Below, in pieces: positions 207 to 59,332 of a stretch of 64,000 nt of DNA. The notes beneath the pieces are model-generated. The model saw only the letters and a list, made by a program, of their open reading frames with translations, made no database searches and was not told where the DNA came from. Origin of the DNA: Eunapius fragilis (Eukaryota; Porifera; Demospongiae; Spongillida; Spongillidae). The translations under genes and the position numbers were made by a program. Every line of letters starts with the position of its first letter. The first letter of the stretch is position 1. Where the stretch lies: positions 5,535,335-5,599,334 of the forward strand of contig OY811989.1 of the NCBI GenBank assembly GCA_963681505.1, written 5' to 3'.

Positions 207-7262
<7,056 letters not shown>

Positions 7263-7404: not shown

Positions 7405-7883
7405 TGATACAGCCAGTGTGTGTTATGCATTGTCATGTGCTCTAGCTTCCACAATGATAGTTTGATTTTATTTCATGTATTAATTAATTTTTGTTTGTTT
7501 GTTTAAAAAAACTCAGCCTTCTAAACTTTTTTTTTTTCTTCTTGCTTGGGTTTTATTTGATCATGCGTCATTTGTATGGTGAACTCTTCTCTGCCACAAG
7601 TGTCGGCGGGTCTGTATAGGCTGTAGGTGTGTCGGCGGGCCTGCATAGGCTGTAGGTGTGTCGACATGAGCTACATGTATGAAATATATTGGAATATGCA
7701 AGTCTTTCAGGTACACCACACCGAAAGGGCGCGCGTTGCTAGAAAGCTGTTTGTAGACCCCTTTCGTCAAACTACAGTTAATTGAATTCATATATGAGCA
7801 AAGTTATGTGCCGAAGGGGCAGTGTACATAAAATCCTTGAGAATCACTTCTCTATTAGTACATTATTCGATTAGTACATTATA

Positions 7884-10835
7884 ATGGCTGCTGAAAGCGA
7901 GAAGATAAGCGTTCTTATAGTTGGCGGTGGTCCCGTGGGACTCACGCTCGCCTCAGAGCTGTCCTATAGGGGGGTGAACTGCATCCTGCTCGAAAAAAAA
8001 CCTGATACCTCGGACTCCGCCAAGGCCGTTCTCATAAACTGTCGCACCATGGAACATTTCCGTCGCCTAGGTCTACAATACAAAGTGCAAGAGGCGGCAT
8101 ACCCTTTAGAGCTCCCCGTAAGCGTAAGCTGTGGGACCAACCTGCTGGGAGACGGCATCTTGTTTTCCAGTAAATTCGACTCGGCAGCAGACGTCTTGGC
8201 GGGACGAGGAAGCCGGTATATTATGTACGTGCCCGGTGCGTCCCCTACATGTCCATTGCTGTGCCCACAGTACCGGCTAGAGCCCGTGCTGAAGAACCAC
8301 CTACTGACGGCCGACAACGTTACGATGCTGTATGGCTACGAAGCCACGTCCCTGAAGCAGGACGAAGACGGGGTTACGGTGGAGGCGCGCCACACTTCCG
8401 ACGAGGGTGTGGTCACGTCCAAAACTTTCAGGGCTCAGTACGCAGTGGGTACAGATGGCGGATCCAGCTGGGTCAGGAAACAGATTGGGGTTCACACCTA
8501 TGGCAAATTCGTGGTGGCCAGGGCTTGCAGTATCACCATAAAGTCACCTGAGCTGTTTACACGTCTACAACAGCTGAATCGCACAGGAATGTATTTTGTC
8601 ATGAATACCAAGCTAACGGCTCTTGTAATAACCCTGAATGCAGAAGGTGGATTAGCCTTCCATGTCTTTTTGCCATCAAACTACTCTGATGAGCAAGTGG
8701 ATGCGGTGGTCCAGAATGCTCACCAGTGTGTCGTGGATCTGATGGGTGAGACCCTTCCATTTACCCTCATCAGTGCCCAGGGATACAACATGCACTGTCT
8801 GCTATCTACCAAGTACCAGGAGGGACGGTGCTTTCTAGCAGGGGATGCTGCCCACCAATGGCTACCAGCTGGTGGGTTGGGTCTGAACACAGGGATTAGT
8901 GATGTTGCAGACCTGGCATGGAAGCTGGAAGCTGTTCTTAAAGGCTATGGTGGTCCTCACCTCTTTGACTCCTATCAACTTGAGCGTCGGATGCTGGCGG
9001 ACTCCACAAGGCAGTTTGCTTTGAACCTAGGTAGTGAGGTTCTCCTGCGACGGCAGCATTTGCAGGCATTCCTGTTGTACACACCCCTTGTGCGCAGTGT
9101 GTTTGGTCGAATTCTTCAAACAACGCTGTTTCAACAGTTCTTCCTTGGCAATAACATCATCCTTGGATTTCAGTATTCCGCCTCCAACGTCATAGTCCAC
9201 GAATACGATGAAAGGGGCGGAGTCAAGCCACACCCATGTTCCTCAAGCAAGTACCTTCCCTCCACCCTTCCTGGGTCACGTGCCCCCCACGTGGGGTCCT
9301 TGCCTGATTGTACCTCCATCATCGATCTGTTTGGCAAGCAGTTTGTCCTCCTGCTCATTGGTGGAGAGGAAACTGACTGCCAGGCACTGAGGGATGGGCT
9401 GGCCAACAGAGGTGTCCCTCTCCAAGTGTATTCATACCCAAAGCTGCCTGAGCTATTAGCCATCTACGACCACAAGTTCTATCTAGTTCGTCCCGACGGT
9501 GTGATTGCCTGGCGTTCAGACTACCAGCCCAGTGCAATGGAGGCCAGTAGGGTAGTGGGGATAGTCCTTGGAGACATCTCCAGCACACATCTCTCACAGA
9601 GAGCCATTACACCAACACGTCATCCCATAATAACACCATCTTTTGCCAACGTGGAATATGGGGCAGTGGTGGCCTTCCTATTGCGGGGTTTTGCTAAGCT
9701 GTCCGAGATGGTCTGCATTGGGTGTGGTCTGGGTACAACATGGCTGCTGAGCGCCTTGTTCACTCACCGCCCACATGAGTTCCTTCAAGCTGTGTCCAGA
9801 CATCGTGCCCTGGTCATCAGTGGATTTGGAGATGCCGAGAAGGTTCTGAAAGTTGACCCCAATCATATCAGGGAGTTTCTCCCCTCTGACGTCTTGATCA
9901 AGGTTAATGCATTCTCTGTTAACCCCATCGATGTCCGCATGCGTCAGGGCTATGGCTCCTCTCTGTTGAAGGCTCTGGCAGGTGGGAGGTCCCTCTTCCC
10001 CCTAGTGCTGGGGCAAGACTGCTCTGGGGAAGTGGTGGCGGTGGGGGACAACGTGAGCAGGTTTGCCCCAGGAGACCAGGTGTACGCGGCCCAGAGCTTT
10101 GGGAGACAGGGAACCTATGCAGAGTACGTGACCGTAGACAAGTCCCTGTGTGCTCTGAAGCCAAGGAACATAGACCACAAACAGGCGGCTTCCCTGCCCT
10201 ACGTGGCAGCCTCTGTGTGGACAGCCCTGGTGACTGAGGTGGGGGTGTGTCCACAGTGGGTAAAGGGGAAGAGAGTGCTGGTACATGGTGGGACAGGGGG
10301 TGTCGGGTCATTTGCTGTGCAGCTCCTGAAGGCTTGGGGTGCAGAGGTGACGACCACTTGCTCCACCCACAACATCAGCCTGGCCCACAAGCTAGGTGCA
10401 GACATAGTGTTTGACTACACCACAGGAAGCTTCAGTGGTGCTCTGAAGAAGAACTATGACCTGGTTCTGGACACAGTTATAGGGAATGAGAAGGCCTCCC
10501 TGAGCGTCCTGAAGGCTTTTGGAGGGGCCAAGTATGTGACCCTCATCTCCCCACGTCTCTGCCTTGCTGGTAAGTACGGCAACTTTCTCGGGTCCTTGGT
10601 GTTTTCGTGGCTGTACCGGTACAAGGTGTTTGTGAACAGGGTGTTCTTTGGTCGAGCGTTCCATTACGTGTTGGCCCAGCCCAGTGGGTCCATCCTGGAA
10701 GAGGTGGCCAAGATGGTGGAGAGTGGGGCCGTATGCCCAGTGATAAGTTCTGTGTACAAGTGGGAAGAGATAGTTGATGCTCATCGTGATGTGGAGGCGG
10801 GGCACTCCCGTGGAAAGGTGGTGGTAACATTGTAA
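7884..10835 (+). CDS. FAD monooxygenase fused to quinone oxidoreductase-like MDR domain, copy A
   Basis: Single-exon frame of 983 codons. The N-terminal half is an aromatic-ring-hydroxylase-type FAD monooxygenase (PheA/TfdB family): dinucleotide motif VLIVGGGPVGLTLASEL near residues 9-25, a DG motif in YAVGTDGGSSWVR, and the FAD-ribityl motif FLAGDAAHQWLPAGGLG. A thioredoxin-fold tail like that of phenol hydroxylases follows (LLIGGEETD...LVRPDGVIAWR, about 480-550). The C-terminal third is a zinc-free MDR reductase like RTN4IP1/quinone oxidoreductase: GQDCSGEVVAVGD and the NADPH-binding VHGGTGGVGSFAVQ. The fusion could couple hydroxylation of an aromatic or quinone substrate to quinone reduction; that is inference. 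Lack of introns, unlike all neighbours, suggests retroposition or horizontal origin. ATG 7884 is chosen because it leads straight into the dinucleotide fold. Copy B (32566-35532) differs by about two dozen substitutions. Confidence 0.9.
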   Translation: MAAESEKISVLIVGGGPVGLTLASELSYRGVNCILLEKKPDTSDSAKAVLINCRTMEHFRRLGLQYKVQEAAYPLELPVSVSCGTNLLGDGILFSSKFDSAADVLAGRGSRYIMYVPGASPTCPLLCPQYRLEPVLKNHLLTADNVTMLYGYEATSLKQDEDGVTVEARHTSDEGVVTSKTFRAQYAVGTDGGSSWVRKQIGVHTYGKFVVARACSITIKSPELFTRLQQLNRTGMYFVMNTKLTALVITLNAEGGLAFHVFLPSNYSDEQVDAVVQNAHQCVVDLMGETLPFTLISAQGYNMHCLLSTKYQEGRCFLAGDAAHQWLPAGGLGLNTGISDVADLAWKLEAVLKGYGGPHLFDSYQLERRMLADSTRQFALNLGSEVLLRRQHLQAFLLYTPLVRSVFGRILQTTLFQQFFLGNNIILGFQYSASNVIVHEYDERGGVKPHPCSSSKYLPSTLPGSRAPHVGSLPDCTSIIDLFGKQFVLLLIGGEETDCQALRDGLANRGVPLQVYSYPKLPELLAIYDHKFYLVRPDGVIAWRSDYQPSAMEASRVVGIVLGDISSTHLSQRAITPTRHPIITPSFANVEYGAVVAFLLRGFAKLSEMVCIGCGLGTTWLLSALFTHRPHEFLQAVSRHRALVISGFGDAEKVLKVDPNHIREFLPSDVLIKVNAFSVNPIDVRMRQGYGSSLLKALAGGRSLFPLVLGQDCSGEVVAVGDNVSRFAPGDQVYAAQSFGRQGTYAEYVTVDKSLCALKPRNIDHKQAASLPYVAASVWTALVTEVGVCPQWVKGKRVLVHGGTGGVGSFAVQLLKAWGAEVTTTCSTHNISLAHKLGADIVFDYTTGSFSGALKKNYDLVLDTVIGNEKASLSVLKAFGGAKYVTLISPRLCLAGKYGNFLGSLVFSWLYRYKVFVNRVFFGRAFHYVLAQPSGSILEEVAKMVESGAVCPVISSVYKWEEIVDAHRDVEAGHSRGKVVVTL

Positions 10836-12229
10836 CCATGGAGATAGATATTGTGTAGAAGTGTTAGCTTCTTTTCTGGTCTTGTGAGTTATAAATAATG
10901 TTCTGAGTACATTTAAATAGCTCTGATGGTTCAAGAACAGTGCATGAGGGTGGTAGGCATAATTTGAACTGACTTAACTTGAATACACAGTTAAAACACA
11001 AAAACTTGATGATACTTTAACCCCGAGCGACCCTGCTTAGCAAGGAAGGTTCCTGCATTTGATATGAGCAGAGTAAAGTTCATCTGGTGATAATGCTTGA
11101 CTGTGCTTGTCAATACACTCAAAATAACAATACAATTGAAGGTGAAACTTGCAAGACCTCTGACTATGATTTTGTGACTGTGTATTTCAAGCCTTTGTAA
11201 TGATTAATTTCGATTATGAATGTTTTACATGACATAATCAAATAGCTATGTGATTCTATCCAGGTCATGATACAGAAGGGTGACTATGTAGCCTACTGTA
11301 ACTAGGTTACATGGTTACCTCCCAGCAACATGGTTACATGGTCACCCTACACTAGACAACATAGTTACATGGTCACCCTACACTAGACAACATAGTTACA
11401 TGGTCACCCTACACTAGACAACATAGTTACATGGTCACCCTACACTAGACAACATAGGTCATCCCTACACTTACACTTGAACAAACTGATTCTATTGTTT
11501 GCGAAAATTTCATTGGGGGGGGGGGGGGGGGGGGATGAAGATGGCTACTGACTAGTATTAGTCCCGTACCCAGGCCCTGTGACATAAGCATACATTGGTA
11601 GACTAGGAGCAAGGCAATCTCAGTGCCAGGCTTGTAGCAGATGTACATGGCCAACCCAGTTATTAACTATAACTCATGGGCAGGGAGGTGAGGGGGTGTG
11701 GTTTCTAGTCTCTTATGGTTGCCTCAACATAACTGGAGTTCTTGATGCTACTTTATCTGCAGTGACTGTGATTTCCTTTATGGGTTGTGGTATTCATTGC
11801 TGCCCTGTGTCCTTCCTTGATTTTATGATAATATCATGTGACCATGATGTGACTTTTTCCTGATTTCCTAGTCATTGGAAGTATGTCCTCTGTACTTTTA
11901 GGTTAGGAATGGCAGGTGTGAACTAAACATGATTGCAATCAAATGTCCAGTTCTCACCCTTTACCTAGTAGGCCTTTGTCAGCATGGCAAACAGCTGGAA
12001 TGATGAGGGGAAGGAAGTCAAACTGCCAACCCTGCTTGAAGGGAAAGCACTTGCAGCTTGGCTGGACCCTAGAGAAGATGAAAAAAAAAGGACTTCACGT
12101 CTATGCATAAGCTACTGGTGCAAGCGTTTGATGTCAATTGGTTTTACCATTTTAGACAAGTTCCAATAGCCATAAGCTGTTGCCAGGTGAATTGCTGTCT
12201 CTTTATAGAAGACAATGGACACAGAGCAG

Positions 12230-12490
12230 TTGGATAAATGTGTGAAACTAAAACAGAACCTTTGTAGTCATTTCAGTGGGATAAATGTGTGAAACTAAAA
12301 CAGAACCTTTGTAGTCATTTCAGTGGGATAAATGTGTGAAACTAAAACAGAACCTTTGTGGTCATTTCAGTGGGATAAATGTGTGAAACTAAAACAGAAC
12401 CTTTTGGTCATTTCAGTGGGATAAATGTGTGAAACTAAAACAGAACCTTTGTGGTCATTTCAGTGGGATAGATGTGTGAAACTAAAACAG
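12230..12490. repeat. 46-bp tandem repeat (mirrored at 30905-31130)
   Basis: Unit GGATAAATGTGTGAAACTAA... about six copies here and five in inverted orientation in the other arm. Copy number has changed since the duplication. Confidence 0.8.
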
Positions 12491-12959
12491 AACCTTTATT
12501 TCAAATAATTGCTGTTGACATTAGGAGACTGGAGATTTGTATGTCATAAGGTTACATGAAGTGTAGTATGGGATGTTTTTTTTTGGTAGATATTTGTTTT
12601 GTTCTCTGATAATTAAGCCTTTATACTTATTGGTGAGATCCATGATGAAATTTCAATTGTGATGAGATCCTTGTCCATTGTATTTGGATTGTGAACATAA
12701 AAAGATATTGTCCAGTCAAGAGTAAATCATATACATGGGTAAAGACAATAAAGTGAGGGCATGGTGTTATGAGTTATGAAGAGGTACAGTAACTGCACTA
12801 GCTCTTTCTTCAATAAAAATGCCCACAGATGTTTGTCCATGTAGGATCAGAGTTAGTATACGCAACTAATTAAGCAGTGAATGGTTACCTGGTGTAGTTA
12901 TTAACGCTGCCTAAGCTTTGTAAATTATGACTTATAAGAGACTAAAAGAAACTGCATAT

Positions 12960-14060
12960 AACTCAGTTGTGGTTAACCTGACCCGAAGGGAGTGTACGCA
13001 CTGGTAGTAAGGGTAAATATCCGTTTAAGAACCACATTTACTTTCAGAATCACAGCTCTCTCCACACACCGTACTTTTTATGATTTCTTTTGAAACCCAT
13101 TTTCAAATTCATCGAAGAACATATAAACTATTCGTTTGTCTCCATCCTGGTATTATTGGCCCGTTTTGGACCCTTAGGGATCGTGGGGAGGGGGGGGGGG
13201 GGGGGGGGTCAGGTGTGTGTGTGACCTAATCAGAACCAACGGTCTAGATAGCAGAAGTACTTAAAATTTCATTGAAGGGCTTACAATTAGACTTGTTACA
13301 GCTTGATTGAAAACTTTTTAATTCGCCCACTAGCTCAACCAACGATCAATACCTAGCCGCGGAATGTACACACACAACTACAATTAACCTTCGTTAATGG
13401 TTGTAAAAAGATGCAAGTTAGAAATGTTGGTGTGATGTGAGTGGGGGGGGGGGGGGGGATGACGATGTGTACACATCATGCTTTGAGGGACATGTCTATA
13501 TATAGGAGCTTATGGGCTTTAATGAACTGACTCAAAATACTCTTTGTAATAATGCCATTCTTCATGAGTGCCTGATATAAGCCTCTTTTCAAACTGATAT
13601 GTCTCAAATTTACCATACAACCCACATTGTCTTCAGCACATAGGTATAAATGTAGGCAGAGTATGCCACTCGTTCGTCTTAGCCTTTTGCAGTGTTGGAT
13701 GCCATTGTTCTGGTGGGGTCATACCACATTTAGAAGAGAATACATGTATACGAAGCTGCATAGAACTCAGTTGTGGTTAACCTGACCCGAAGGGTTTACG
13801 CACTGGTAGTAAGGGTAAATATCCGTTAAAGAACCACATTTACTTTCAGAAATCACAGCTCTCTCCACACACCGTACTTTTTTATGATTTCTTTTGAAAC
13901 CCATTTTCATATTCATCGAAGAACATGGATAAACTATTCGTTTGTCTCCATCCTGGTATTATTGGCCCGTTTTGAACCCCTTAGGGATCGTGGGGAGGGG
14001 GGGGGGGGGGGGGGGGGGGGGGTCAGGTGTGTGTGGCCTAATCAGAACCATAGATTATTT
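12960..14060. repeat. Interspersed repeat R1, two head-to-tail copies
   Basis: About 500-800 bp element with recognisable segments: CTCTCTCCACACACCGTAC, a variable G-run after GATCGTGGGGA, and a block ending near TATAGGAGCTTATGGGC. Other copies on the opposite strand are at about 21050-21840, 27830-28260, 29150-29620 and 29620-30190. No long ORF; a non-autonomous transposon family is likely, the class unknown. Confidence 0.75.
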
Positions 14061-14197
14061 AGACAGGGATCACGTGCACGCCAATTAACAGCTCCATCAA
14101 GGATTTTTCAATTGATTGAGACTGATAATATGTACAACCTGCAAAAGGATGTTATGTGTGTGCAATCAATCGTTGATTATTACATGCGCTTTTTGCC

Positions 14198-17013: not shown

Positions 17014-17061
17014 CTAAAGCAAGTCATTCTGTCCAAAATGTTCTTGTACGGTTCTCTTTGC
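17014..17061 (-). CDS. Terminal exon of microexon gene
   Basis: The pyrimidine-rich acceptor GTGTCTCCCTTCAAACAG precedes a phase-0 frame AKRTVQEHFGQNDLL and TAG. The preceding intron is longer (205 nt) than those inside the array. Confidence 0.5.
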   Translation of the reverse strand, partial: AKRTVQEHFGQNDLL

Positions 17062-20000
17062 CTGTTTGAAGGGAGACACATGTGCCCACACTATATTAAC
17101 AAAGGTTCAAACTCACAGTCATTTCTTTTGCAGTCATTGTGCAGTGAGAATGAAATAGTAAAGTGTAGCACAGTAAAACATAGAATACAAACAAATTTGA
17201 TTTACAAACTTCAGCAATGCATTTAATGTGTTATATGCGACGGAAAATGCATTAATTGATACTTACACACTAATAATATCCATGGTGATGAGGAATAATA
17301 AGTAGATATGAAAAGGTGCCATGGGAAACGCAACACTATTGATACTTACGCACTGCATCATACATCATGTTGACAAGGGATTTAAGTATGCAGTTTAATA
17401 TCCTACGGGAAATGAAGCACTGTTTGCACTTACACACTATATTGTCCATAACAGTGTGCATAGGGGCAAGGAATAAGTAGGCATTGTAAAGATGTAATGG
17501 CCGGGGAAATGCAACAATCATTGATACTTACTTGCTGCCAATATAGTATCCATGGGAACAAGGAATAAGTAGAATTGTAAAGGTGCAATGGGAAATGCAA
17601 CATCATTGATACTTACTCTCTGCATTGTTCACAGCAGTATCCATGGCAACAAGGAATAAATAGTATTGTAAAGGTGAAATGGGAAATGAAAATCATTGAT
17701 ACGTACAGTCTTGCATTGTTCATAACAGTATCCATGGCAACAAGAATACGTAGGCATTGTAAAGGTGTAATGAGAAATGCAACATCATTGATACTTACCA
17801 CCTGCATTATTCATAATAGTATCCATGGCAACGGGCATTGTAAAGGTGCAATGTGAAATGCAACATCATTGATACTTACAGTCTGCATTGTTCATAATAG
17901 TATCCATGGCAACAAGGCATTGTAAAGGTGCAATGGGAAATGCAACATCATTGATACTTACAGGCTGCATTGTTCATAATAGTATCCATGGCAACAAGGC
18001 ATTGTAAAGGTGCAATGGGAAATGCAACATCATTGATACTTACTCCCTGCATTGTTCATCATAGTATCCATGGCAACAAGGAATAAGTAGGTGCAATGGG
18101 AAAAGCAACATCATTGATACTTACCAACTGCATTGTTCATAATAGTATCCATGGCAACAAGGAATAAGTAGGTGCAATGGGAAATGCAACATCATTGATA
18201 CTTACTTTCTGCATTGTTCATGATAGTATCCATGGCAACAAGGAATAAGTAGGCATTGTGTAAAGGTGCAATGGGAAATGCAACATCATTGATACTTACA
18301 GTCTGCATTGTTCATAATAGTATCCATGGCAACAAGGAATAAGTAGGCATTGTAAAGGTGTAATGGGAAATGCAACATCATTGATACTTACCAACTGCAT
18401 TGTTCATAATAGTATCCATGGCAACAAGGAATAAGTAGGTGCAATGGGAAATGCAACATCATTGATACTTACAATCTGCATTGTTCATGATAGTATTCAT
18501 GGCAACAAGGAATAAGTAGGTGCAATGGGAAATGCAACATCATTGATACTTACTCCCTGCATTGTTCATAATAGTATCGATGGCAACAACGAATAAGTAG
18601 GTGCAATGGGAAATGCAACATCATTGATACTTACAATCTGCATTGTTCATGATAGTATTCATGGCAACAAGGAATAAGTAGCCATTGTAAAAGTGCAATG
18701 GGAAATGCAACATCATTGATACTTACACACTGGATTGATAATATATAAATCATGGTGACAAGGTCAGAATGATTAGATATGTTAAGATGAGAAATTACTT
18801 ACAGGCTGCATCCATGGTGATAAGGAAGAAGTAGGCATTGTAAAGGTGCAATGGGAAATGTGACATCATTGATACTTACACGCTGCATTGTTCACAATAT
18901 AGTATCATGACAGCAAGGAATAAGTAAGTATAATAAAGGTGCAATGAGAAATGAAACACATTGATACTTACTTTCTGCATTGTTAGTACAGGTAATAGTA
19001 TCCATGGAATTAGAAGATTAAAAGCATGTAAGGTGCAAAGGGGAATGCTATATTCTTACACACTGCATTGTTCATAATAGCATCATGGTGGCAAAGAATA
19101 AGTAGGCATTGTAAAAGTGCAAGTGAAAATGTGAAACTTACGGTCTGCATAATAGTATCCATGGCAAAAAGGAATAAGTAGGCATTGTAAAGGTGCAATG
19201 GGAAATGCAAATCATTGATACGTACAGTCTTGCATTGTTTATAATAGTATCCATGGCAACAAGGAATAAATAGGCATTGTAAAAGTGCAATGGAAAATGC
19301 AACATCATTAATACTTACAAGCTGCATAATTGTTCATAATAGTATCCATGGCAACAAGGAATAAGTAGGCATTGTAAAGGTGTAATGGGAAATGCAAATC
19401 ATTGATACGTACAGTCTTGCATTGTTCATAATAGTATCCATGGCAACAAGAAATAAGTAGGCATTGTAAAAGTGCAATGGAAAATGCAACATCATTGATA
19501 CTTACAAGCTGCATAATTGTTCATAATAGTATCCATGGCAACAAGGAATAAGTAGGCATTGTAAAGGTGCAATGGGAAATGCAACATCATTGATACTTAC
19601 AGGCTGCATAATTGTTCATAATTGAATCCAGAGTATTGAGGAATAAGTAGGCATTGTAAAGGTGCAATGGGAAATGCAAATCATTGATATGTACAGTCTT
19701 GCATTGTTCATAATAGCATCCATGGCAATAAGGAATAAATAAGCATTGTAAAAGTGCAATGGGAAATGCAACATCATTGATACTTACTCCCTGCATTGTT
19801 CATAATGGTATCCATGGCAACAAGGAATAAGTAGGCATTGTAAAGGTGCAATGGGAAATGCAACATCATTGATACTTACAGGCTGCATTGTTAATAGTAG
19901 TATCCATGGCAACAAGGAATAAGTAGGCATTGTAAAGGTGCAATGGGAAATGTGACATCATTAATACTTACAGGCTGCATTGTTAATAGTAGTATCCATG

Positions 20001-20705
20001 GCAACAGGGAATAAGTAGGCATTGTAAAGGTGCAATGGGAAATGTAACATTGATACTTACAAGCTGCATAATTGCTCATAATAGTATCCATGGCAACAAG
20101 GAATAAGTAGGCATTGTAAAGGTGCAATGGGAAATGCAACATCATTGATACTTACAGTCTGCATTGTTCATAATAGTATCCATGGCAACAAGGAATAAGT
20201 AGGCATTGTAAAGGTGTAATGAAAAATGCAACATCATTGATACTTACAGTCTGCATTGTTCATAATAGTATCCATGGCAACAAGGAATACGTAGGCATTG
20301 TAAAGGTGTAATGAGAAATGCAACATCATTGATACTTACACACTGGATCGTAATGTTCCATGGTAACAAGGCCAGAATAAGTAGCAATACATGGAACAAT
20401 GGGATATACGGCACCACAACTTATTTATACTTACTTTCTCGGCAATCGTCAAACGTCCTACAAATAAAATAACCAGTATGCATGGATTATAAATTAATAC
20501 ACACCTGACAGGCCACTTTACCCTTTAGGTTAGCCGATAATCTGCCCTTGTGACTTGGATCTATGATATCAACCTCTTTGTTCATCTCAACTGGATTGTT
20601 CAGTTGTTGCTGCACGAAATCGTCCTCTAGGTCCTTATAGCTCTGGGGACGAGCATCGGCAAATAGCGCCAGTAGGGCCACAAGAACAGCCAGTTCCTTC
20701 AGCAT
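17014..20705 (-). CDS. Candidate secreted peptide gene built from 36 single-codon microexons
   Basis: Model on the minus strand. Exon 1 (20705-20522) starts with MLKELAVLVALLALFADA, a clear signal peptide, then an acidic pro-region. Its donor GTAAAG (phase 1) joins a 23-nt exon (20457-20435) reading GRLTIAEK and restoring phase 0. Then come 36 exons of exactly 3 nt (20342-17267) and a last exon (17061-17014) with acceptor CTCCCTTCAAACAG and 15 codons plus TAG. The total is about 120 residues. All phases agree without adjustment. The array contributes 6 Cys, 9 Thr, 5 Pro, 5 Leu, 3 Gly, 2 each of Lys, Arg and Ile, 1 Val and 1 Gln. Three Cys are adjacent at its end. An alternative exon 1 donor at 20504 (CAG|GTGTGT) works only if the second exon is also 3 nt (AAA, 20435-20437). 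No homology is recognised; the product looks like a secreted, perhaps disulfide-containing peptide. The gene structure is inference from sequence and needs transcript evidence. Confidence 0.6.
17267..20342 (-). CDS. Tandem array of 36 three-nucleotide microexons
   Basis: Each unit reads ...ATGCAG or a variant, NNN, GTAAGTATC or a variant on the minus strand; introns are 73-95 nt. Low coordinate and minus-strand triplet: 20340 TGT; 20248 ACT; 20156 ACT; 20061 CTT; 19972 CCT; 19880 CCT; 19788 GGA; 19695 ACT; 19601 CCT; 19506 CTT; 19413 ACT; 19319 CTT. Next group: 19226 ACT; 19142 ACC; 19060 TGT; 18972 AAA; 18880 CGT; 18803 CCT; 18727 TGT; 18635 ATT; 18554 GGA; 18473 ATT; 18392 TTG; 18300 ACT. 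Last group: 18206 AAA; 18125 TTG; 18044 GGA; 17962 CCT; 17880 ACT; 17799 GTG; 17707 ACT; 17617 AGA; 17532 CAA; 17434 TGT; 17350 TGC; 17267 TGT. There are 14 different triplets and no stops. The typical intron contains no AG between its donor and its terminal AG, which leaves one usable acceptor. The donor GTAAGTAT matches U1 almost fully. Confidence 0.6.
20522..20705 (-). CDS. Exon 1 of microexon gene: signal peptide and pro-region
   Basis: The ATG at 20705 opens a hydrophobic signal segment (LAVLVALLALFADA) with a probable cleavage site before RPQSY. Residues 20-61 are acidic/amide-rich (DLEDDFVQQQ). The frame is open further upstream, but only this start gives a signal peptide at the N terminus. 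Confidence 0.7.
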
Positions 20706-21049
20706 TCTCTGTCGTTTAGTCGGCTGCGCAAAGGTATGGAAATATGACTGAACAATTTGTTTAAATACGCATGTCCAGACGGAAATTGCAAAGCCGTGTT
20801 CATGAAGGATTTCAAATTGGTATAATCTTTCTGTGGTTTGTGGTCGCGTCCCCAATACCTTGGTAAAGCAAGACTTAGGGTTAGCAAGTGTGGAAGTTAT
20901 ATATGTCACTAGGCTCACCAAGCTCAGGATTATTTCAAAGGGAGTGACCTAGAGTATGCTTGTTATACCTTCCTAAAGGATATCCTGCATGGAGGAGTAG
21001 TCAGGGCACCAAGACTATTACAACCCCTACCCCTATGGAGACTGTGGAG

Positions 21050-27830: not shown

Positions 27831-30190
27831 ACAAAGAGTATTTTGAGTCAGTTCACTAAAGCCCATAAGCTCCTATATATAGGCATGTCCCTCAAAGCAT
27901 GATGTGTACACATCGTCATCCCCCTCCCCCACTCACATCACACCAACATTTCTAACTTGCATCTTTTTACAACCATTAACGAAGGTTAATTGTAGTTGTG
28001 TGTGTACATTCACTCCGCATCCGCAGCTAGGTATTGATCGTTGGTTGAGCTAATGGGCGAATTAAATAGTTTTCAATCAAGCTGTAACAAGTCTAATCGT
28101 AAGCCCTTCAATGAAATTTTAAGTACCTTTGCTATCTAACCGTTCACGTGACCCGTCTAAAATGTCAGAACCAACGGTTAGATAGCAAAGGTACTTAAGA
28201 TTTCATTGAAGGGCTTACGATTAGACTTGTAATGTTACAGCTTGATTCAATATTATAATGGTAGCACCTTTTGAGTTTGGCGGGAAAATGTCTTAAAGCT
28301 GGTTTTGGTGAAATCGTATCATGTAGAGTCTCGAATGTATTTCACACAATTCATGAAAGGTAAGGTTTGTCTAGAAATGTGTTTGAAGTTCTAGTGAACG
28401 AATGTTTTTAATAAAAACAGAAATGAAGCTACCTTTCTGGGCGTGCAAAAGCTGTTCTGTACGTTTTTTTGACCTTGATTTTTTGTAAATAAGCTCTTCG
28501 TAGCAATCTGAATAGAACTGGATAGGTTTTGCCCTTTTCCCTAGCTTTGAAAACATAAAGTGGCACGAAACAGCGTTTTAGACATACAGTCAGTTCTGGG
28601 CGTATAACTACTTAAATAGTGTAAAAGCGGTTTGAAGGTTTCATCCTCTAGTGCACTCATTTTGCGATAGAACTGGACTATGGACTAAGCCAGGGAGTGT
28701 TGGTATGAGGTTATAAAAAGTTCGCGACTATCGCGTCAATCATTAGGGACACGGTACGAATAGACTAGGCCGTACTAGCAGTTCTGGGCGTATTGCTACT
28801 TTTGTATATAGTATTAGCGGGGTTTGAAGGTTTTATCCTCTAGTGCACTCATTTTGCGCTAGAACAGAGCTATGCACGGGAGTGTTGGTATGAAGTTATA
28901 ACAAGTTGGCTTTACATCGAATATCGCGTCAATCATTAGGGATACGGCACGAATAGAGTAAGACTGCTGTCATTTCTGCGCCTGTGGCTACTTTTGTAAA
29001 TAATATTAACGGGGTTTGAAGGTTTCATCCTTCACTGCTACTCATTTTGCCATTCCAGACTTAATAACTACTACAATAACCTATCTTCCGCTATAACACA
29101 GATGGAGCTGTTAATTGGCGTGCACATGATCCGTTTCCAATCCCTGTCTAAATAATCTATGGTTCTGATTAGGTCACACACACCTGACCCCCCCCCCCCC
29201 CCCCCCCCCCCCCGATCCCTAAGGGGTCCAAAACGGGCCAATAATACCAGGATGGAGACAAACGAATAGTTCCATGTTCTTCGATGAATATGAAAATGGT
29301 TTCAAAAGAAATCATAAAAAAGTACGGTGTGTGGAGAGAGCTGTGATTTCTGAAAGTAAATGTGGTTCTTTAACGGATATTTACCCTTACTACCAGTGCG
29401 TAAACCGTTCGGGTCAGGTTAACCACAACTGAGTTCTATGCAGCTTCGTATACATGTATTCACTTCTAAATGTGGTATGACCCCATCAGAACAATGGCAT
29501 CCAACACTGCAAGTGGCATACTCTGCCTACATTTATACCTATGTGCTGAAGACAATGTGGGTTGTATGGTTTAGAAATTTGAGACATATATTACAAAGAG
29601 TATTTTGAGTCAGTTCATTAAAGCCCAAAAGTTAAATAAGCTCCTATATAGACATGTCCCTTAAAACATGATGTGGACACATTGCCCCCCCCCGCTCACA
29701 TCACACCAACATTTCTAACTTGCATCTTTTTACAACCATTAACGAAGGTTAATTGTAGTTGTGTGTGTACATTCACTCCGCATCCGCAGCTAGGTATTGA
29801 TCGTTGGTTGAGCTAGTGGGCGAAATAAAAAGTTTTCAATCAAGCTGTAACAAGTCTAATTGTAAGCCCTTCAATGAAATTTTTAAGTACTTTTGCTATC
29901 TAGACCGTTGGTTCTGATTAGGTCACACACACCTGACCCCCCCCCCCCCCCCCCCGATCCCTAAGGGGTCCAAAACGGGCCAATAATATCAGGATGGAGA
30001 CAAACGAATAGTTTATCCATGTTCTTCGATGAATTTGAAAATGGGTTTCAAAAGAAATCATTAAAAAGTACAGTGTGTGGAGAGAGCTGTGATTCTGAAA
30101 GTAAATGTGGTTCTTAAACGGATTTTTACCCTTACTACCAGTACGTACACTCCCTTCAGGTCAGGTTAACCACAACTGAGTTATATGCAG
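27830..30190 (-). repeat. Cluster of R1 copies and hairpin
   Basis: Three partial to full R1 copies (27830-28260, 29150-29620, 29620-30190). Within the first, about 57 bp at 28088-28145 return as a near-perfect reverse complement at 28173-28229, giving a strong hairpin. Confidence 0.7.
28588..29060. repeat. About 200-bp tandem repeat, 2.5 copies
   Basis: Three blocks begin near 28590, 28778 and 28970 with CAGTTCTGGGCGTAT or a variant, followed by GGTTTGAAGGTTTCATCCT. Non-coding. Confidence 0.65.
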
Positions 30191-33100
30191 CTTCTTTTAG
30201 TCTCTTATAAGTCATAATTTACAAAGCTTAGGCAGCGTTAATAACTACACCAGGTAACCATTCACTGCTTAATTAGTTGCGTATACTAACTCTGATCCTA
30301 CATGGACAAACATCTGTGGGCAATTTTATTGAAGAAAGAGCTAGTGCAGTTCCTGTACCTCTTCATAACTCATAACACCATGCCCTCACTTTATTGTCTT
30401 TACCCATGTATATGATTTACTCTTGACTGGACAATATCTTTTTATGTTCACAATCCAAATACAATGGACAAGGATCTCATCACAATTGAAATTTCATCAT
30501 GGATCCCACCACAACAGTGCAATGGCTTACTAACCTACCTTTTTTTCTGCTTCTTTCAGTTCACTCCTTAACTCCCAATTTCATTCAGCTTCGCTTGATA
30601 CTCAGCTCAGCACTATTTCAGTTCATCACTCTTACCACTCTTTCTCTTTTTTCAACTCTTTCAATTCATTGCATATACATAGCTCAGCACTCTTTCAGGT
30701 TACTTCTTTTGCTCACAACTTCACTTAACCTCTTATTGCTCCTTTTTTTTTTCTGGTAGAAGTAGTCATTGGCAGAAAGTATAAAGGCTTAATTATCAGA
30801 GAACAAAACAAAATATCTACCAAAAAAAAACATCCCATACTACACTTCATGTAACCTTATGACATACAAATCACCAGTCTCCTAATGCCAACAGCAATTA
30901 AATAAAGGTTCTATTTTAGTTTCACACATTTATCCCACTGAAATGACCACAAAGGTTCTGTTTTAGTTTCACACATTTATCCCACTGAAATGACCACAAA
31001 GGTTCTGTTTTAGTTTCACACATTTATCCACTGAAATGACCACAAAGGTTCTGTTTTAGTTTCACACATTTATCCCACTGAAATGACCACAAGGGTTCTG
31101 TTTTAGTTTCACACATTTATCCAACTGCTCTGTGTCCATTGTCTTCTATAAAGAGACAGCAATTCACCTGGCAACAGCTTATGGCTATTGGAACTTGTCT
31201 AAAATGGTAAAACCAATCGGCATCAAACGCTTGCACCAGTAGCTTATGCATAGACGTGAAGTCCTTTTTTTTCATCTTCTCTAGGGTCCAGCCAAGCTGC
31301 AAGTGCTTTCCCTTCGAGCAGGGTTGGCAGTTTGACTTCCTTCACCTCATCATTCCAGCTGTTTGCCATGCTGCATGTCAAAACACTTAAACCATTTGGC
31401 GGCCTCCCCAGAAGAGAAGGGTTTTGGAACACTAATCTCAGTACTTGATACAGCCATTCTCTGCTACCAATGTGACAAAGGCCTACTAGGTAAAGGGTGA
31501 GAACTGGACATTTGATTGCAATCATGTTTAGTTCACAACTGCCATTCCTAACCTAAAAGTACAGAGGACATAAGCTTCCAATGACTGCCACAACCTGTTA
31601 AAGGAAATCAGGAAAAAGTCACATCATGGTCGCATGATATTATCATAAAATCAAGGAAGGACACAGGGCAGCAATGAATACCACAACCCATAAAGGAAAT
31701 CACAGTCACTGCAGATAAAGTAGCATCAAGAACTCCAGTTATGTTGAGGCAACCATAAGAGACTAGAAACCACACCCCCTCACCTCCCTGCCCATGAGTT
31801 ATAGTTAATAACTGGGTTGGCCATGTACATCTGCTACAAGCCTGGCACTGAGATTGCCTTGCTCCTAGTCTACCAATGTATGCTTATGTCACAGGGCCTG
31901 GGTACGGGACTAATACTAGTCAGTAGCCATCTTCATCCCCCCCCCCCCCCCCCCCCAATGAAATTTTCGCAAACAATAGAATCAGTTTGTTCAAGTGTAA
32001 GTGTAGGGATGACATATGTTGTCTAGTGTAGGGTGACCATGTAACTATGTTGTCTAGTGTAGGGTGACCATGTAACCATGTTGCTGGGAGGTAACCATGT
32101 AACCTAGTTACAGTAGGCTACATAGTCACCCTTCTGTATCATGACCTGGATAGAATCACATAGCTATTTGATTATGTCATGTAAAACATTCATAATCGAA
32201 ATTAATCATTACAAAGGCTTGAAATACACAGTCACAAAATCATAGTCAGAGGTCTTGCAAGTTTCACCTTCAATTGTATTGTTATTTTGAGTGTATTGAC
32301 AAGCACAGTCAAGCATTATCACCAGATGAACTTTACTCTGCTCATATCAAATGCAGGAACCTTCCATGCTAAGCAGGGTCGCTCGGGGTTAAAGTATCAT
32401 CAAGTTTTTGTGTTTTAACTGTGTATTCAAGTTAAGTCAGTTCAAATTATGCCTACCACCCTCATGCACTGTTTTTGAACCATCAGAGCTATTTAAATGT
32501 ACTCAGAACATTCTCACAACAGCAGAAAAGAAGCTAACACTTCTACACAATATCTATCTCCATGGTTACAATGTTACCACCACCTTTCCACGGGAGTGCC
32601 CCGCCTCCACATCACGATGAGCATCAACTATCTCTTCCCACTTGTACACAGAACTTATCACTGGACATACGGCCCCACTCTCCACCATCTTGGCCACCTC
32701 TTCCAGGATGGACCCACTGGGCTGGGCCAACACGTAATGGAACGCTCGACCAAACAACACCCTGTTCACAAACACCTTGTACCGGTACAGCCACGAAAAC
32801 ACCAAGGACCCGAGAAAGTTGCCGTACTTACCAGCAAGGTAGAGACGTGGGGAGATGAGGGTCACATACTTGGCCCCTCCAAAAGCCTTCAGGATGCTCA
32901 GGGAGGCCTTCTCATTCCCTATAACTGTGTCCAGAACCAGGTCATAGTTCTTCTTCAGAGCACCACTGAAGCTTCCTGTGGTGTAGTCAAACACTATGTC
33001 TGCACCTAGCTTGTGGGCCAGGCTGATGTTGTGGGTGGAGCAAGTGGTCGTCACCTCTGCACCCCAAGCCTTCAGGAGCTGCACAGCAAATGACCCGACA

Positions 33101-35515
33101 CCCCCTGTCCCACCATGTACCAGCACTCTCTTCCCCTTTACCCACTGTGGACACACCCCCGCCTCAGTCACCAGGGCTGTCCACACAGAGGCTGCCACGT
33201 AGGGCAGGGAAGCCGCCTGTTTGTGGTCTATGTTCCTTGGCTTCAGAGCACACAGGGACTCGTCTACAGTCACGTACTCTGCATAGGTTCCCTGTCTCCC
33301 AAAGCTCTGGGCCGCGTACACCTGGTCTCCTGGGGCAAACCTGCTCACGTTGTCCCCCACTGCCACCACTTCCCCAGAGCAGTCTCGCCCCAGCACTAGG
33401 GGAAAGAGGGACCTCCCACCTGCCAGAGCCTTCAACAGAGAGGAGCCATAGCCCTGACGCATGCGAACATCGATGGGGTTAACAGAGAATGCGTTAACCT
33501 TGATCAAAACGTCAGTGGGGAGAAACTCCCTGATATGATTGGGGTCAACTTTCAGAACCTTGTCGGCATCTCCAAATCCAATGATGACCAGGGCACGATG
33601 TCTGGACACAGCTTGAAGGAACTCATGTGGGCGGTGAGTGAACAAGGCGCTCAGCAGCCATGTTGTACCCAGACCACACCCAATGCAGACCATCTCGGAC
33701 AGCTTAGCAAAACCCCGCAATAGGAAGGCAACCACTGCCCCACGACCCACGTTGGCAAAAGATGGAGGTGTTATTATGGGATGACGTGTTGGTCTAATGG
33801 CTCTCTGTGAGAGATGTGTGCTGGAGATGTCTCCAAGGACTATCCCCACTACCCTACTGGCCTCCATTGCACTGGGCTGGTAGTCTGAACGCCAGGCAAT
33901 CACACCGTCGGGACGAACTAGATAGAACTTGTGGTCGTAGATGGCTAATAGCTCAGGCAGCTTTGGGTATGAATACACTTGGAGAGGGACACCTCTGTTG
34001 GCCAGCCCATCCCTCAGTGCCTGGCAGTCAGTTTCCTCTCCACCAATGAGCAGGAGGACAAACTGCTTGCCAAACAGATCGATGATGGAGGTACAATCAG
34101 GCAAGGACCCCACGTGGGGGGCACGTGACCCAGGAAGGGTGGACGGAAGGTACTTGCTTGAGGAACATGGGTGTGGCTTGACTCCGCCCCTTTCATCGTA
34201 TTCGTGGACTATGACATTGGAGGCGGAATACTGAAATCCAAGGATGATGTTATTGCCAAGGAAGAACTGTTGAAACAGCGTTGTTTGAAGGATTCGACCA
34301 AACACACTGCGCACAAGGGGTGTGTACAACAGGAATGCCTGCAAATGCTGCCGTCGCAGGAGAACCTCACTACCTAGGTTCAAAGCAAACTGCCTTGTGG
34401 AGTCCGCCAGCATCCGACGCTCAAGTTGGTAGGAGTCAAAGAGGTGAGGACCACCATAGCCTTTAAGAACAGCTTCCAGCTTCCATGCCAGGTCTGCAAC
34501 ATCACTAATCCCTGTGTTCAGACCCAACCCACCAGCTGGTAGCCATTGGTGGGCAGCATCCCCTGCTAGAAAGCACCGTCCCTCCTGGTACTTGGTAGAT
34601 AGCAGACAGTGCATATTGTATCCCTGGGCACTGATGAGGGTAAATGGAAGGGTCTCACCCATCAGATCCAGGACACACTGGTGAGCATTCTGGACCACCG
34701 CATCCACTTGCTCATCAGAGTAGTTTGATGGCAACAAGACATGGAAGGCTAATCCACCTTCTGCATTCAAGGTTATTACAGCCGCCGTTAGCTTGGTATT
34801 CATGACAAAATACATTCCTGTGCGATTCAGCTGTTGTAGACGTGTAAACAGCTCAGGTGACTTTATGGTGATACTGCAAGCCCTGGCCACCACAAATTTG
34901 CCATAGGTGTGGACCCCAATCTGTTTCCTGACCCAGCTGGACCCGCCATCTGTACCCACTGCGTACTGAGCCCTGAAAGTTTTGGACGTGACTACACCCT
35001 CGTCGGAAGTGTGGCGCGCCTCCACCGTAACCCCGCCTTCGTCCTGCTTCAGGGACGTGGCTTCGTAGCCATACAGCATCGTAACGTTGTCGGCCGTCAG
35101 TAGGTGGTTCTTCAGCACGGGCTCTAGCCGGTACTGTGGGCACAGCAATGGACATGTAGGGGACGCACCGGGCACGTACATAATATACCGGCTTCCTCGT
35201 CCCGCCAAGATGTCTGCTGCCGAGTCGAATTTACGGGAAAACAAGATGCCGTCTCCCAGCAGGTTGGTCCCACAGCTTACGCTTACGGGGAGCTCTAAAG
35301 GGTATGCCGCCTCTTGCACTTTGTATTGTAGACCCAGGCGACGAAAATGTTCCATGGTGCGACAGTTTATGAGAACGGCCTTGGCGGAGTCCGAGGTATC
35401 AGGTTTCTTTTCGAGCAGGATGCAGTTCACCCCCCTATAGGACAGCTCTGAGGCGAGCGTGAGTCCCACGGGACCACCGCCAACTATAAGAACGCTTGTC
35501 TTCTCGCTATCTGTC
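29095..35515. repeat. Right arm of large inverted duplication
   Basis: Reverse-complement partner of 7890-14100. It differs by indels: about 265 bp at 30502-30765 rich in TTTC/ACTC and about 110 bp near 31366-31470 are absent from the left arm, and the 46-bp array has fewer units here. Apart from fusion gene copy B no convincing gene is seen. Confidence 0.85.
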
Positions 35516-35532
35516 GCCATTCTCGCATTCAA
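32566..35532 (-). CDS. FAD monooxygenase-MDR fusion, inverted copy B
   Basis: Same architecture as the copy at 7884-10835, on the opposite strand, 988 codons, no frame breaks. It begins with four extra residues (MNAR) before the shared start region, and the two copies lose similarity just upstream of their ATGs, so the duplication edge lies at the start codon. All cofactor motifs are kept (GGGPVGL, GDAAH, GGTGGVG). Differences are scattered and mostly conservative, for example Q/R in LG(Q/R)DCSGE and an extra proline near residue 627. Both copies therefore look functional. Its ATG lies only 49 bp from the ATG of the divergent P4-ATPase gene at 35582, so the two share a very short promoter region, whereas copy A sits downstream of the kinase gene with different upstream DNA. 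Expression of the copies may therefore differ. Confidence 0.9.
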   Translation of the reverse strand: MNARMATDSEKTSVLIVGGGPVGLTLASELSYRGVNCILLEKKPDTSDSAKAVLINCRTMEHFRRLGLQYKVQEAAYPLELPVSVSCGTNLLGDGILFSRKFDSAADILAGRGSRYIMYVPGASPTCPLLCPQYRLEPVLKNHLLTADNVTMLYGYEATSLKQDEGGVTVEARHTSDEGVVTSKTFRAQYAVGTDGGSSWVRKQIGVHTYGKFVVARACSITIKSPELFTRLQQLNRTGMYFVMNTKLTAAVITLNAEGGLAFHVLLPSNYSDEQVDAVVQNAHQCVLDLMGETLPFTLISAQGYNMHCLLSTKYQEGRCFLAGDAAHQWLPAGGLGLNTGISDVADLAWKLEAVLKGYGGPHLFDSYQLERRMLADSTRQFALNLGSEVLLRRQHLQAFLLYTPLVRSVFGRILQTTLFQQFFLGNNIILGFQYSASNVIVHEYDERGGVKPHPCSSSKYLPSTLPGSRAPHVGSLPDCTSIIDLFGKQFVLLLIGGEETDCQALRDGLANRGVPLQVYSYPKLPELLAIYDHKFYLVRPDGVIAWRSDYQPSAMEASRVVGIVLGDISSTHLSQRAIRPTRHPIITPPSFANVGRGAVVAFLLRGFAKLSEMVCIGCGLGTTWLLSALFTHRPHEFLQAVSRHRALVIIGFGDADKVLKVDPNHIREFLPTDVLIKVNAFSVNPIDVRMRQGYGSSLLKALAGGRSLFPLVLGRDCSGEVVAVGDNVSRFAPGDQVYAAQSFGRQGTYAEYVTVDESLCALKPRNIDHKQAASLPYVAASVWTALVTEAGVCPQWVKGKRVLVHGGTGGVGSFAVQLLKAWGAEVTTTCSTHNISLAHKLGADIVFDYTTGSFSGALKKNYDLVLDTVIGNEKASLSILKAFGGAKYVTLISPRLYLAGKYGNFLGSLVFSWLYRYKVFVNRVLFGRAFHYVLAQPSGSILEEVAKMVESGAVCPVISSVYKWEEIVDAHRDVEAGHSRGKVVVTL

Positions 35533-35581: not shown

Positions 35582-38500
35582 ATGGAGGAAAAGGTTACGT
35601 CTTACCATGATACAGCTGCACCTCCACCAGGATATCGCTGCTTTACAGCTCAAAGCGTACTTCTACCTCCGGCACCTTGGTATCGAAAAGTTCGTGTTCC
35701 AGGTTTTACCCGTCGTACATCTCCATACACAAATGTTGTACGCACTACCAAGTATACAGTGTTTAACTTTGTGCCCAAAAATCTATGGGAACAGTTTCAT
35801 CGCGGCGCCAATCTCTATTTTGTCTTCATAATTTTTCTAAACTTGGTGCCTGAGTTGGAGGTGTTTGGGAAGGAGATAGCCTTTATTCCTGTACTATTCG
35901 TGCTCTTGGTAACTGCTGTCAAAGACATCTTTGAAGACTACCGACGCTACAGATCTGATAAAGAGGTGAATAGCAAGCAAGCCAGAGTTTACGACCGGTA
36001 ACTGCCTACCCCCGCATCTATTTAATACGCACTCACACACATGTCAACGCACGTGCCTCCAGTGAAGCGCGAAGGTTTGAAGAGGTCCAATGGAAGGACG
36101 TGCGTCTTGGCGACTTCGTTGAGGTCCTGTGCGACGCGGCTATTCCCGCAGACCTTCTTCTGATTCGCTCGAGTGATACGGGAGGCGTGTGTTACATTGA
36201 AACAGCCACCCTCGATGGAGAGACGAACCTGAAGCAGAGGCAGGCCGTGTTACAAAACCAGCAGCAACACAACACAGAGGTTAGCCCACTGGTATAACAG
36301 TCGCCATTTTGCTACTACTAAGTGAGGGTACATGCAGTACAGTGTCCATGTTAACGTATCGAGAGGTAACAAGATAGTCGCGTCACCTGCCCGCTGCCTT
36401 TTACTATCAACACAACTTACAGTTCGTTGGTAACCTAAATAACTGTAGTCAGAGCTGTGCTAACATGTAGTCCAGTGATAACCCTGTGCACTCACTGCAG
36501 GCCGAGGATGGGATAAGGATGTTTGAGCCAGGTGATTTGAAGGGGGAGGTGTGGTGTGAACAACCTCATGAGAAGATCTACGAGTTCAATGGATACATGT
36601 GAGTGTGTCAGCCAACGGGCCTCGTGCTTTAACCCTTCCTCCACCTCATTGCCACACCTCACTTTCCCCTAGTGCTTCTCCTTGTGAAGAACATGTTCCC
36701 ATCACTCGTAGCAACCTTTTACTGAGGAGCTGTGTACTGAGGAACACCACAGCTGTGATTGGGTTGGTGGTGTATGCAGGTGAGTGGAGTTGGAGCAGGA
36801 AGGCTGTACCAGGGAAGGCTCCTTTATGAAGTAGTCATTGTGAATGAGCATGCAGTCGCTGTTATTGTATTTTTTATGGATTGTGGTCTGGTAGAACTAT
36901 TTTGGCTTGCAAATCCCATCTCAATAATGCTACACAGGCCATGAAACCAAAGCCATGTTGAACAACACTGGTCCTCGCTACAAGAGAAGCAAGCTGGAGA
37001 AAGACATTAACATTGATGTCATCGTGCAGGTGGTAATACTGGTAGTTCTATGTCTGGTGGGAGGCATAGGTGAGTGGTGGGAGGGACATTGGTGAGTGGT
37101 GGGAGGGACATTGGTGTGTAGTGGGAGGGACATTGGCTAGTGGTGAGAGGGACATTGGTGAGTGTGGTGGGAGGAGCATTGTGAGTGGGAGGCATTGGCG
37201 AGTGTGGTGGTGGGAGGGGCATTGGTGGTGTGTACATGTATATGTGAGGGGCAGTAATGATTGGTTTATGATCCTTCTCCTTGACACCAGGCAATGGGGT
37301 GTGGTCAAAAATGCAGCTGGGTATTGATGTGCCTTACTACATCCAGAGGCTAAGTCCTGCCTTAAGTGGCTTTACCACATTCTGGAGTTTCATCATTCTA
37401 CTACAGGTAACCACACACCCCAAAATATGTGTGGGCGTGGTGTTTACATGCATGTGTACCATACACCCTTACATGGACATGCATCTGCACTACACACCTT
37501 ACATGGACATGCATCTGCACTATACACCTTACATGGGCATACATCTGCACTACACACCTTACATGGGCATACATCTGCACTACACACCTTACATGGGCAT
37601 ACATCTGCACTATACACCTTACATGGGCATACATCTGCACTACACACCTTACATGGGCATACATCTGCACTACACACCTTGCATGGACATGCATCTGCAC
37701 TACACACCTTACATGGGCATACATCTGCACTACACACCTTACATGGGCATACATCTGCACTACACACCTTACATGGACATGCATCTGCACTATACACCTT
37801 ACATGGGCATACATCTGCACTACACACCTTACATGGGCATACATCTGCACTACACACCTTACATGGGCATACATCTGCACTATACACCTTACATGGGCAT
37901 ACATCTGCACTACACACCTTACATGGGCATACATCTGCACTACACACCTTACATGGACATGCATCTGCACTACACACCTTACATGGGCATACATCTGCAC
38001 TACACACCTTACATGGGCATACATCTGCACTACACACCTTACATGGGCATACACACCTTACATGGGCATACATCTGCACTACACACCTTACATGGACATG
38101 CATCTGCACTACACACCTTACATGGGCATACATCTGCACTATACACCTTACATGGGCATACACACCTTACATGGGCATACATCTGCACTACACACCTTAC
38201 ATGGGCATACACACCTTACATGGGCATACATCTGCACTACACACCTTACATGGGCATACATCTGCACTACACACCTTACATGGGCATACATCTGCACTAC
38301 ACACCTTACATGGGCATACATCTGCACTACACACCTTACATGGGCATACATCTGCACTACACACCTTACATGGGCATACATCTGCACTACACACCTTACA
38401 TGGGCATACACACCTTACATGGGCATACATCTGCACTACACACCTTACATGGGCATACATCTGCACTACACACCTTACATGGGCATACACACCTTACATG

Positions 38501-59103: not shown

Positions 59104-59332
59104 GTGTGGCGGCTGGTGCAGAGGAAACAGCGTCGCAGTATTAAATTATACAGAAACCAAAACCCAAAGTGACGTCGTCGCATTATCTTTGACCACACCT
59201 CCATCCACTTTCATAGTGGTGACGCCTGTCACGAAAAATTCTATCTGTCCGTAAAATATTTATCCTAGGATAATTTTTGTCGTGACACGCCACTCGGGCG
59301 AAGGGGATTCCCCTGGTTGAGCCCCCTCGTTG
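59104..59332. promoter_or_regulatory. Short divergent promoter region
   Basis: Only 229 bp separate the ATGs of the SH3 adaptor (-) and the dsRNA-binding caspase-like gene (+), so both promoters and 5'UTRs must lie here or overlap the genes. No canonical TATA box is evident. Confidence 0.5.

Follow-up and report, generated by a model that had tools for sequence, protein, structure and literature searches.

Cone-snail toxin superfamilies and the cysteine-rich peptides of sponges combine a conserved signal sequence with a variable mature part in which a cysteine pattern recurs, and introner elements occur as many near-identical introns. As portrayed in excerpts of two reports (PMC3961193, PMC4015677), the micro-exon genes (MEGs) of schistosomes encode a signal peptide, contain many small symmetric exons (multiples of three, 6–36 bp) and give rise to secreted, variable products. 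The aphid bicycle genes, according to a portion of PMC9168663, encode fast-evolving secreted proteins from many small exons of one phase (phase 2), with more than 100 microexons in megacycle. Single exons of 3 nucleotides (nt) are spliced in animals in NCAM, troponin T and homothorax, as stated in parts of two further papers (PMC7392893, PMC8042270). Here we describe a gene on the minus strand of a 64,000-nt stretch of the freshwater sponge Eunapius fragilis (contig OY811989.1 of assembly GCA_963681505.1, positions 5,535,335 to 5,599,334; hereafter the window), in which 36 tandem units each hold exactly 3 nt between a splice acceptor and a splice donor. With a probability of about 0.93 it codes for protein and belongs to a large family, probably one of freshwater sponges, whose secreted, hypervariable and mostly cysteine-rich peptides would be assembled one residue per exon.

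The sponge family resembles the MEGs in its symmetric exons (560/622) and its phase-0 array, and its members have in common a hydrophobic N-terminus, a putative signal peptide, whereas its exons measure 3 nt and stand in long runs, compared with 6–36 bp in the MEGs, and it comes from a different phylum. Pfam gives no family for the sponge precursors (MEG sequences were not directly compared). Because the exon-size feature fails and homology lacks support, we regard the sponge genes as working like micro-exon genes without counting them as members. The bicycle genes differ in having internal exons of phase 2, in contrast to phase 0 and 3 nt in the sponge array, and the 3-nt exons of NCAM, troponin T and homothorax are isolated in ordinary genes, whereas the sponge ones form peptide-encoding arrays. 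The plan of the cone-snail toxins and sponge cysteine-rich peptides is alike, with no sequence match via Pfam or PDB. Unlike introner elements, the sponge unit seems almost confined to one gene family (among the matches listed) and is spaced at exactly one codon. A literature search on 3-nt exon arrays, sponge microexon peptides, bicycle genes and schistosome MEGs, with most subscription papers and bioRxiv outside its scope, revealed no such array in titles or abstract openings among the matches listed.

The array of 3-nt exons

The first-pass annotation of the window, made from the sequence letters, had described 36 units with a triplet of fixed length between an AG acceptor and a GTAAGT/GTACGT-type donor. 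This observation holds: in 36/36 units exactly 3 nt separate the AG from a GTA donor. The array and its exons are as follows.

17267..20342, minus strand: array of 36 3-nt exons, from unit inspection and translation (CTTLPPGTPLTLTTCKRPCIGILTKLGPTVTRQCCC)
20342, 20250, 20158, 20063, 19974, 19882, 19790, 19697, 19603, 19508, 19415, 19321, minus strand: first bases of the 3-nt exons of units 1–12
19228, 19144, 19062, 18974, 18882, 18805, 18729, 18637, 18556, 18475, 18394, 18302, minus strand: first bases, units 13–24
18208, 18127, 18046, 17964, 17882, 17801, 17709, 17619, 17534, 17436, 17352, 17269, minus strand: first bases, units 25–36
19697, 19415, 19228, 17709, minus strand: variant ACT units with a GCAAG acceptor and a GTAC donor

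Thirty-two of the 36 donors read GTAAG, three GTACG and one GTACA, and the acceptor GCAAG is found in all four units with a GTACG or GTACA donor. The 36 introns ending at array exons are 73–95 nt long and 31 of them contain no AG between donor and acceptor, while the triplets take 14 distinct values, none of them a stop, all of which agrees with the initial description. The units are tandem copies; when at most two mismatches were allowed, the unit pattern ATGCAGNNNGTAAGTATCAATG gave 27 matches in the window, all within the array, and none in the shuffled window. Read in order, the gene product is MLKELAVLVALLALFADARP...LKGRLTIAEK, followed by CTTLPPGTPLTLTTCKRPCIGILTKLGPTVTRQCCC from the 36 units.

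The claim that the units are similar except at the triplet was borne out by pairwise comparison. In the 40 pairs of array units with less than 3% flank divergence (mean 2.1%), 59% of the triplet sites differed and only 8 pairs had the same triplet; in the 329 pairs below 10% flank divergence the proportion of differing triplet sites was 65%. Ungapped 3-base control windows in the introns differed at 2–43% of sites, the upper part of this range being due to register shifts at indels. Since the triplets vary far more than their flanks, this points to homogenised introns combined with selection on the codons.

Spacing, reading frame and codon behaviour across the family

A query with the signal peptide of the gene gave 58 genomic matches (E ≤ 10), of which a few are second pieces of one gene. 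By these matches the window gene is a member of a large multigene family, which was not known to the first-pass annotation. Spacing was counted independently of any splice prediction in 45 family loci. From a CAG to the next GTAAGT or GTAAGA, with gaps of up to 30 nt allowed, the distance was 3 nt in 408/462 cases; the other gaps included 6 nt (19), 9 nt (10), 12 nt (4) and 0 nt (one), with none of 1, 2, 4 or 5 nt, and in the reverse-strand control 3 nt was found in 0/20. Across the 219-Mb genome (24 contigs, the window lying on one of 6.2 Mb), the pattern ATGCAG...GTAAGTATCAATG with 0–24 nt in between was separated by exactly 3 nt at 351/358 sites, and TAA, TGA and TAG were absent from the triplets; the reversed pattern gave no matches. 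One of the seven other sites has a gap of 4 nt (among the matches listed). Stop triplets, or gaps other than 3 nt, in related loci had been named beforehand as observations that would speak against a coding array; the loci passed this test. No stop triplet was present in the genome-wide count or in the decoding described below, and a few exceptions in spacing lie outside the 45 loci, in L052, L055 and L056. Among the matches listed (100 of 358), 90 lie in clusters adjoining a family signal peptide and 10 elsewhere.

A splice-chain calculation was also applied, which weighted donors and acceptors generically and favoured no particular exon length, frame or codon. Under the stricter setting the window was decoded as exons of 184 and 23 nt followed exclusively by 3-nt exons until the last exon, at 17061, in frame, using 32/36 array units and skipping all four ACT variants. 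Looser weights recovered 35/36 units (19697 being skipped) and added one 3-nt exon, followed by a handful of further small exons; the added 3-nt exon, TTT (17208–17206), is not conserved in the C1 paralogue. The reading frame is preserved with or without the four ACT units. For 45 of the 46 family loci (L014, being the same gene as L050, was excluded), the decoding yielded 492 3-nt exons with 0 stops, compared to 19.8 expected from base composition, and the controls gave 10 3-nt exons on the reverse strand and 5 in shuffles. Lengths divisible by three were found for 560/622 decoded exons of up to 30 nt, versus 74/197 (reverse strand) and 43/129 (shuffles). At least three consecutive 3-nt exons were present in 38/45 loci.

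The triplets also behave as codons. The pattern C..C..C..CCC recurs in the window, C1 and C22 arrays, even where the C22 introns have diverged, and on this conservation the triplets are read in order. Fourteen paralogue pairs were compared unit by unit, and all were tested for a difference between triplets and introns. Divergence of the triplets significantly exceeded that of the introns in six pairs (L036/L037, L036/L042, L041/L046, L041/L049, L017/L023 and window/L050), with nonsynonymous to synonymous codon changes of 7:0, 9:3, 12:0, 7:0, 5:0 and 22:0, respectively. In the C22 pairs no aligned cysteine codon (0) was changed to another residue.

Several results weigh against this interpretation. 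No run of three 3-nt exons was decoded in 7/45 loci (L008, L009, L020, L021, L028, L032 and L047), the sequence covered after the start codon being less than 1.6 kb in six of them and 9.7 kb in L047. The exon and unit counts are not independent, because both units and genes are related to each other by duplication; near-identical pairs occur among the decoded loci, and L015 and L016 are identical. No significant triplet excess was found in eight of the 14 pairs (L037/L039, L043/L048, L007/L017, L007/L023, L015/L016, L025/L027, L031/L033 and L025/L031), some of which are near-identical or short, and the value for L017/L023 (p=0.042) would fail correction for multiple tests. The units of window/L050 are not reliably matched, since three aligned units pair a cysteine with another residue, and this may also apply to further arrays whose introns are homogenised. 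Outside the 45 loci, L052 and L055 contain 4-nt gaps and L056 one of 5 nt. Finally, the splicing of the triplets is deduced from sequence constraint, and the full-length predicted product was not found in two protein searches.

Gene ends, relatives and surroundings

The remaining parts of the window gene are as follows.

20760..20767, minus strand: TATA-like element TATTTAAA upstream of exon 1, recognised by sequence, with a putative function
20522..20705, minus strand: exon 1, 184 nt, signal peptide MLKELAVLVALLALFADA and pro-region, from decoding, coordinates and family matches
20435..20457, minus strand: exon 2, 23 nt, restoring phase 0 (GRLTIAEK), from decoding and the 23-nt C1 homologue
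17117..17124, minus strand: probable penultimate exon AAATGACT, 8 nt, a lysine codon and a TGA stop, from small stop-carrying homologues in the C1 and C22 genes
17014..17061, minus strand: start of the last exon, acceptor CTTCAAACAG, probably 3' untranslated region (UTR); alternatively coding for AKRTVQEHFGQNDLL and a stop

A TATTTAAACAAATTGTTCAGTCA stretch is also present upstream of the C1 paralogue, as at the TATA-like element of the window. Exon 1 ends in phase 1 at AAAGG|GTAAAG, and the C1 paralogue supports exons 1 and 2 through a conserved exon 1 donor, the 23-nt length and much of the 23-nt sequence. The first-pass annotation had joined the signal-peptide exon, the 23-nt exon and a stop-bearing terminal exon to the array in phase 0; the agreement of phase holds for exons 1 and 2, whereas the terminal exon is probably 3' UTR. 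This change is made because the paralogues have an in-frame stop in the small exon ahead of the last one: AAATGACT in the window corresponds to CCATGACT in C1 and to CCATTAAAGCTGTAATT and relatives in the C22 genes, and four cysteine-less genes have a small stop-carrying exon TGATAATCC... and relatives. Judged from conservation, the stop therefore most likely lies in the 8-nt exon at 17124–17117, although the stricter decoding speaks against this correction, as it omits the AAATGACT exon and joins the last cysteine codon directly to 17061 (ending AKRTVQEHFGQNDLL). An alternative exon 1 of 201 nt (CAG|GTGTGT), followed by AAA as a 3-nt exon, is in frame in the window; C1 has no AG before the last three bases of its 23-nt exon, and this structure was rejected as a rule for the family.

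The longest run of 3-nt exons described here exceeds that of the window.

C11:3595600–3602100, minus strand: L051, an unbroken run of 52 3-nt exons, translation IPFDPSKVINLDPSFDPKNFVFCPPDKPDPSKVINFDKFYKFCPPDKFDDCC, which contains a peptide repeat

For several introns of its peptide-repeat units the closest match lies 25 or 20 units away; the peptide repeats thus correspond to units with matching introns, and blocks of units were therefore duplicated together with their codons. A cysteine-less class is located on C5, C1 (22.4–22.5 Mb) and C12, with some members being proline-rich (e.g. APPTPPPIWWKKTPAWK); L041, L043, L046, L048 and L049 lack cysteine, share the family signal peptide and have arrays of 3-nt exons. 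Decay of single units was observed as well. In the C1 array one donor reads GAAAGT, and in L007 the unit after TGC has the acceptor CAA where L017 and L023 have CAG, so that the decoder yields a 1-nt exon, which breaks the frame unless the unit is skipped. Such a single splice-site change, losing one residue, would keep the frame.

Most of the 10 genome-wide matches that lie away from a family signal peptide were inspected, at five loci. Two are long arrays of 3-nt units (L053, 26 units; L056, 20), one is an array of 15 units ending in CCC (L054), and two are short runs with 4-nt gaps, TTTT and TTCT (L052, three units; L055, two), which are perhaps decayed arrays. A simple scan of 4-kb stretches found no signal peptide at L052–L056.

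The signal MLKEL...LFADARP is present in proteins of Ephydatia muelleri, including EMCRGX_G000365, G000383 and G000433. Hints of the 3-nt array in a second species come at the protein level: the read-through protein P0006 reads the 23-nt exon and what may be the units TGT and CCT. Among seven E. muelleri NCBI models, P0018–P0020 end in VRMR, P0023 and P0030 read VSINDV/VSIHDV, and P0021 and P0022 show neither; the VRMR ends and the VSINDV/VSIHDV reads look as if the models ran into an array intron. Annotation thus seems to miss the array products, and a class of sponge peptides may therefore be absent from current proteomes.

Elsewhere in the window, 7883–14100 and 29100–35521 form an inverted duplication of ∼6 kb (best piece 4.1 kb, 96% identity), each arm of which carries an intact frame for a FAD-monooxygenase/quinone-oxidoreductase fusion, with the array gene in the spacer. 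On the plus strand, 59321–63783 holds two caspase-domain frames, one of them followed by frames matching double-stranded-RNA-binding and Dicer-dimerisation domains. Minisatellites with units of ∼14–60 nt are very dense across the window (e.g. 4483–5333, 6002–6704, 37462–38747, 57010–58330). Scanning the window with Rfam and for tRNAs produced no hits, Pfam found no family for two predicted precursors, a PDB search returned only beta-defensin 7 (E=2.3, not significant), and a search of IMG/VR for the unit pattern gave 0 matches.

Probable assembly of the peptide and alternative explanations

The secreted-peptide gene with one codon per exon proposed by the first-pass annotation is supported by sequence tests, namely the 3-nt spacing, the lack of stops, the agreement of phase, the recurring cysteines and the duplication in blocks. 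Exon 1 would supply the signal peptide and pro-region, and the 23-nt exon would set phase 0. The 36 successive one-codon exons would then build the segment from the first cysteine to CCC, one residue each, with all array introns being removed by the spliceosome, as the sequence constraint suggests. Introns of 73–95 nt would suit intron definition. They are not more stably folded than shuffles (mean z −0.43 to 0.48 in seven arrays, for introns ending at 3-nt exons), and because they show no fold signal, there is no sign of a structure that would bring the splice sites together. Duplication and conversion probably keep the introns alike within the array, with selection acting on the codons. As a phase-0 codon, each unit could be gained, lost, skipped or duplicated within a block, and residues would thereby be added or removed without a frameshift. 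The product would be processed and secreted, with predicted peptide ends, and is most likely a defence or toxin-like peptide.

It might be argued that the array is a non-coding tandem repeat within one large intron, with exon 1 and the 23-nt exon spliced directly to the last one, repeat amplification having produced the splice-like motifs as a by-product. The units are indeed tandem copies, and the presence of the triplets in messenger RNA is a prediction; yet none of the 492 decoded or 351 genome-wide triplets is a stop, the 3-nt spacing is constant across many loci, the triplet is the most variable part of near-identical units (59% versus 2.1% in the flanks, 40 pairs) and the cysteine pattern recurs, which makes such a repeat highly improbable. 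The arrays could also have originated from an introner-like element that entered a formerly uninterrupted coding sequence in separate events, each time between two codons, and introns differing by a few percent next to saturated triplets would fit this origin. We consider it improbable, as 36/36 insertions in one phase and exactly one codon apart are unexpected if independent, several L051 units were copied along with their triplets, at offsets of 25 and 20 units, and 90 of the 100 listed matches (358 in all) cluster beside a family signal peptide.

The remaining alternative extends the one-residue-per-exon reading rather than opposing it: the codon-exons would be alternatively spliced, giving many related peptides per gene. 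The frame survives whichever units are retained, the splice sites are weak or broken in some of them (19697 in the window, one in C1 and one in L007), and alternative splicing is reported in part of PMC4015677 for schistosome micro-exon genes with symmetric exons. The loss of a cysteine codon would alter the cysteine count, yet the cysteine pattern recurs across the paralogues, and we regard this putative extension as rather unlikely.

More speculatively, and with odds we would place somewhat below even, the genes form a genome-wide codon-modular family in which a residue equals an exon. Recombination in the near-identical introns would insert, delete, swap and block-duplicate residues at no cost to the frame, regulated skipping would give a combinatorial peptide library, and dozens of 3-nt exons would be spliced in series in a "codon-by-codon splicing ratchet". 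If true, this would be a categorically new gene architecture.

If the assembly of one residue per exon is true, the window gene with 36 consecutive one-codon exons, and its sister gene with 52, would mark a new extreme in the splitting of protein-coding genes. The family would also provide a natural test of the spliceosome on serial 3-nt exons, and the gene structure itself would ease the change of these sponge peptides residue by residue.

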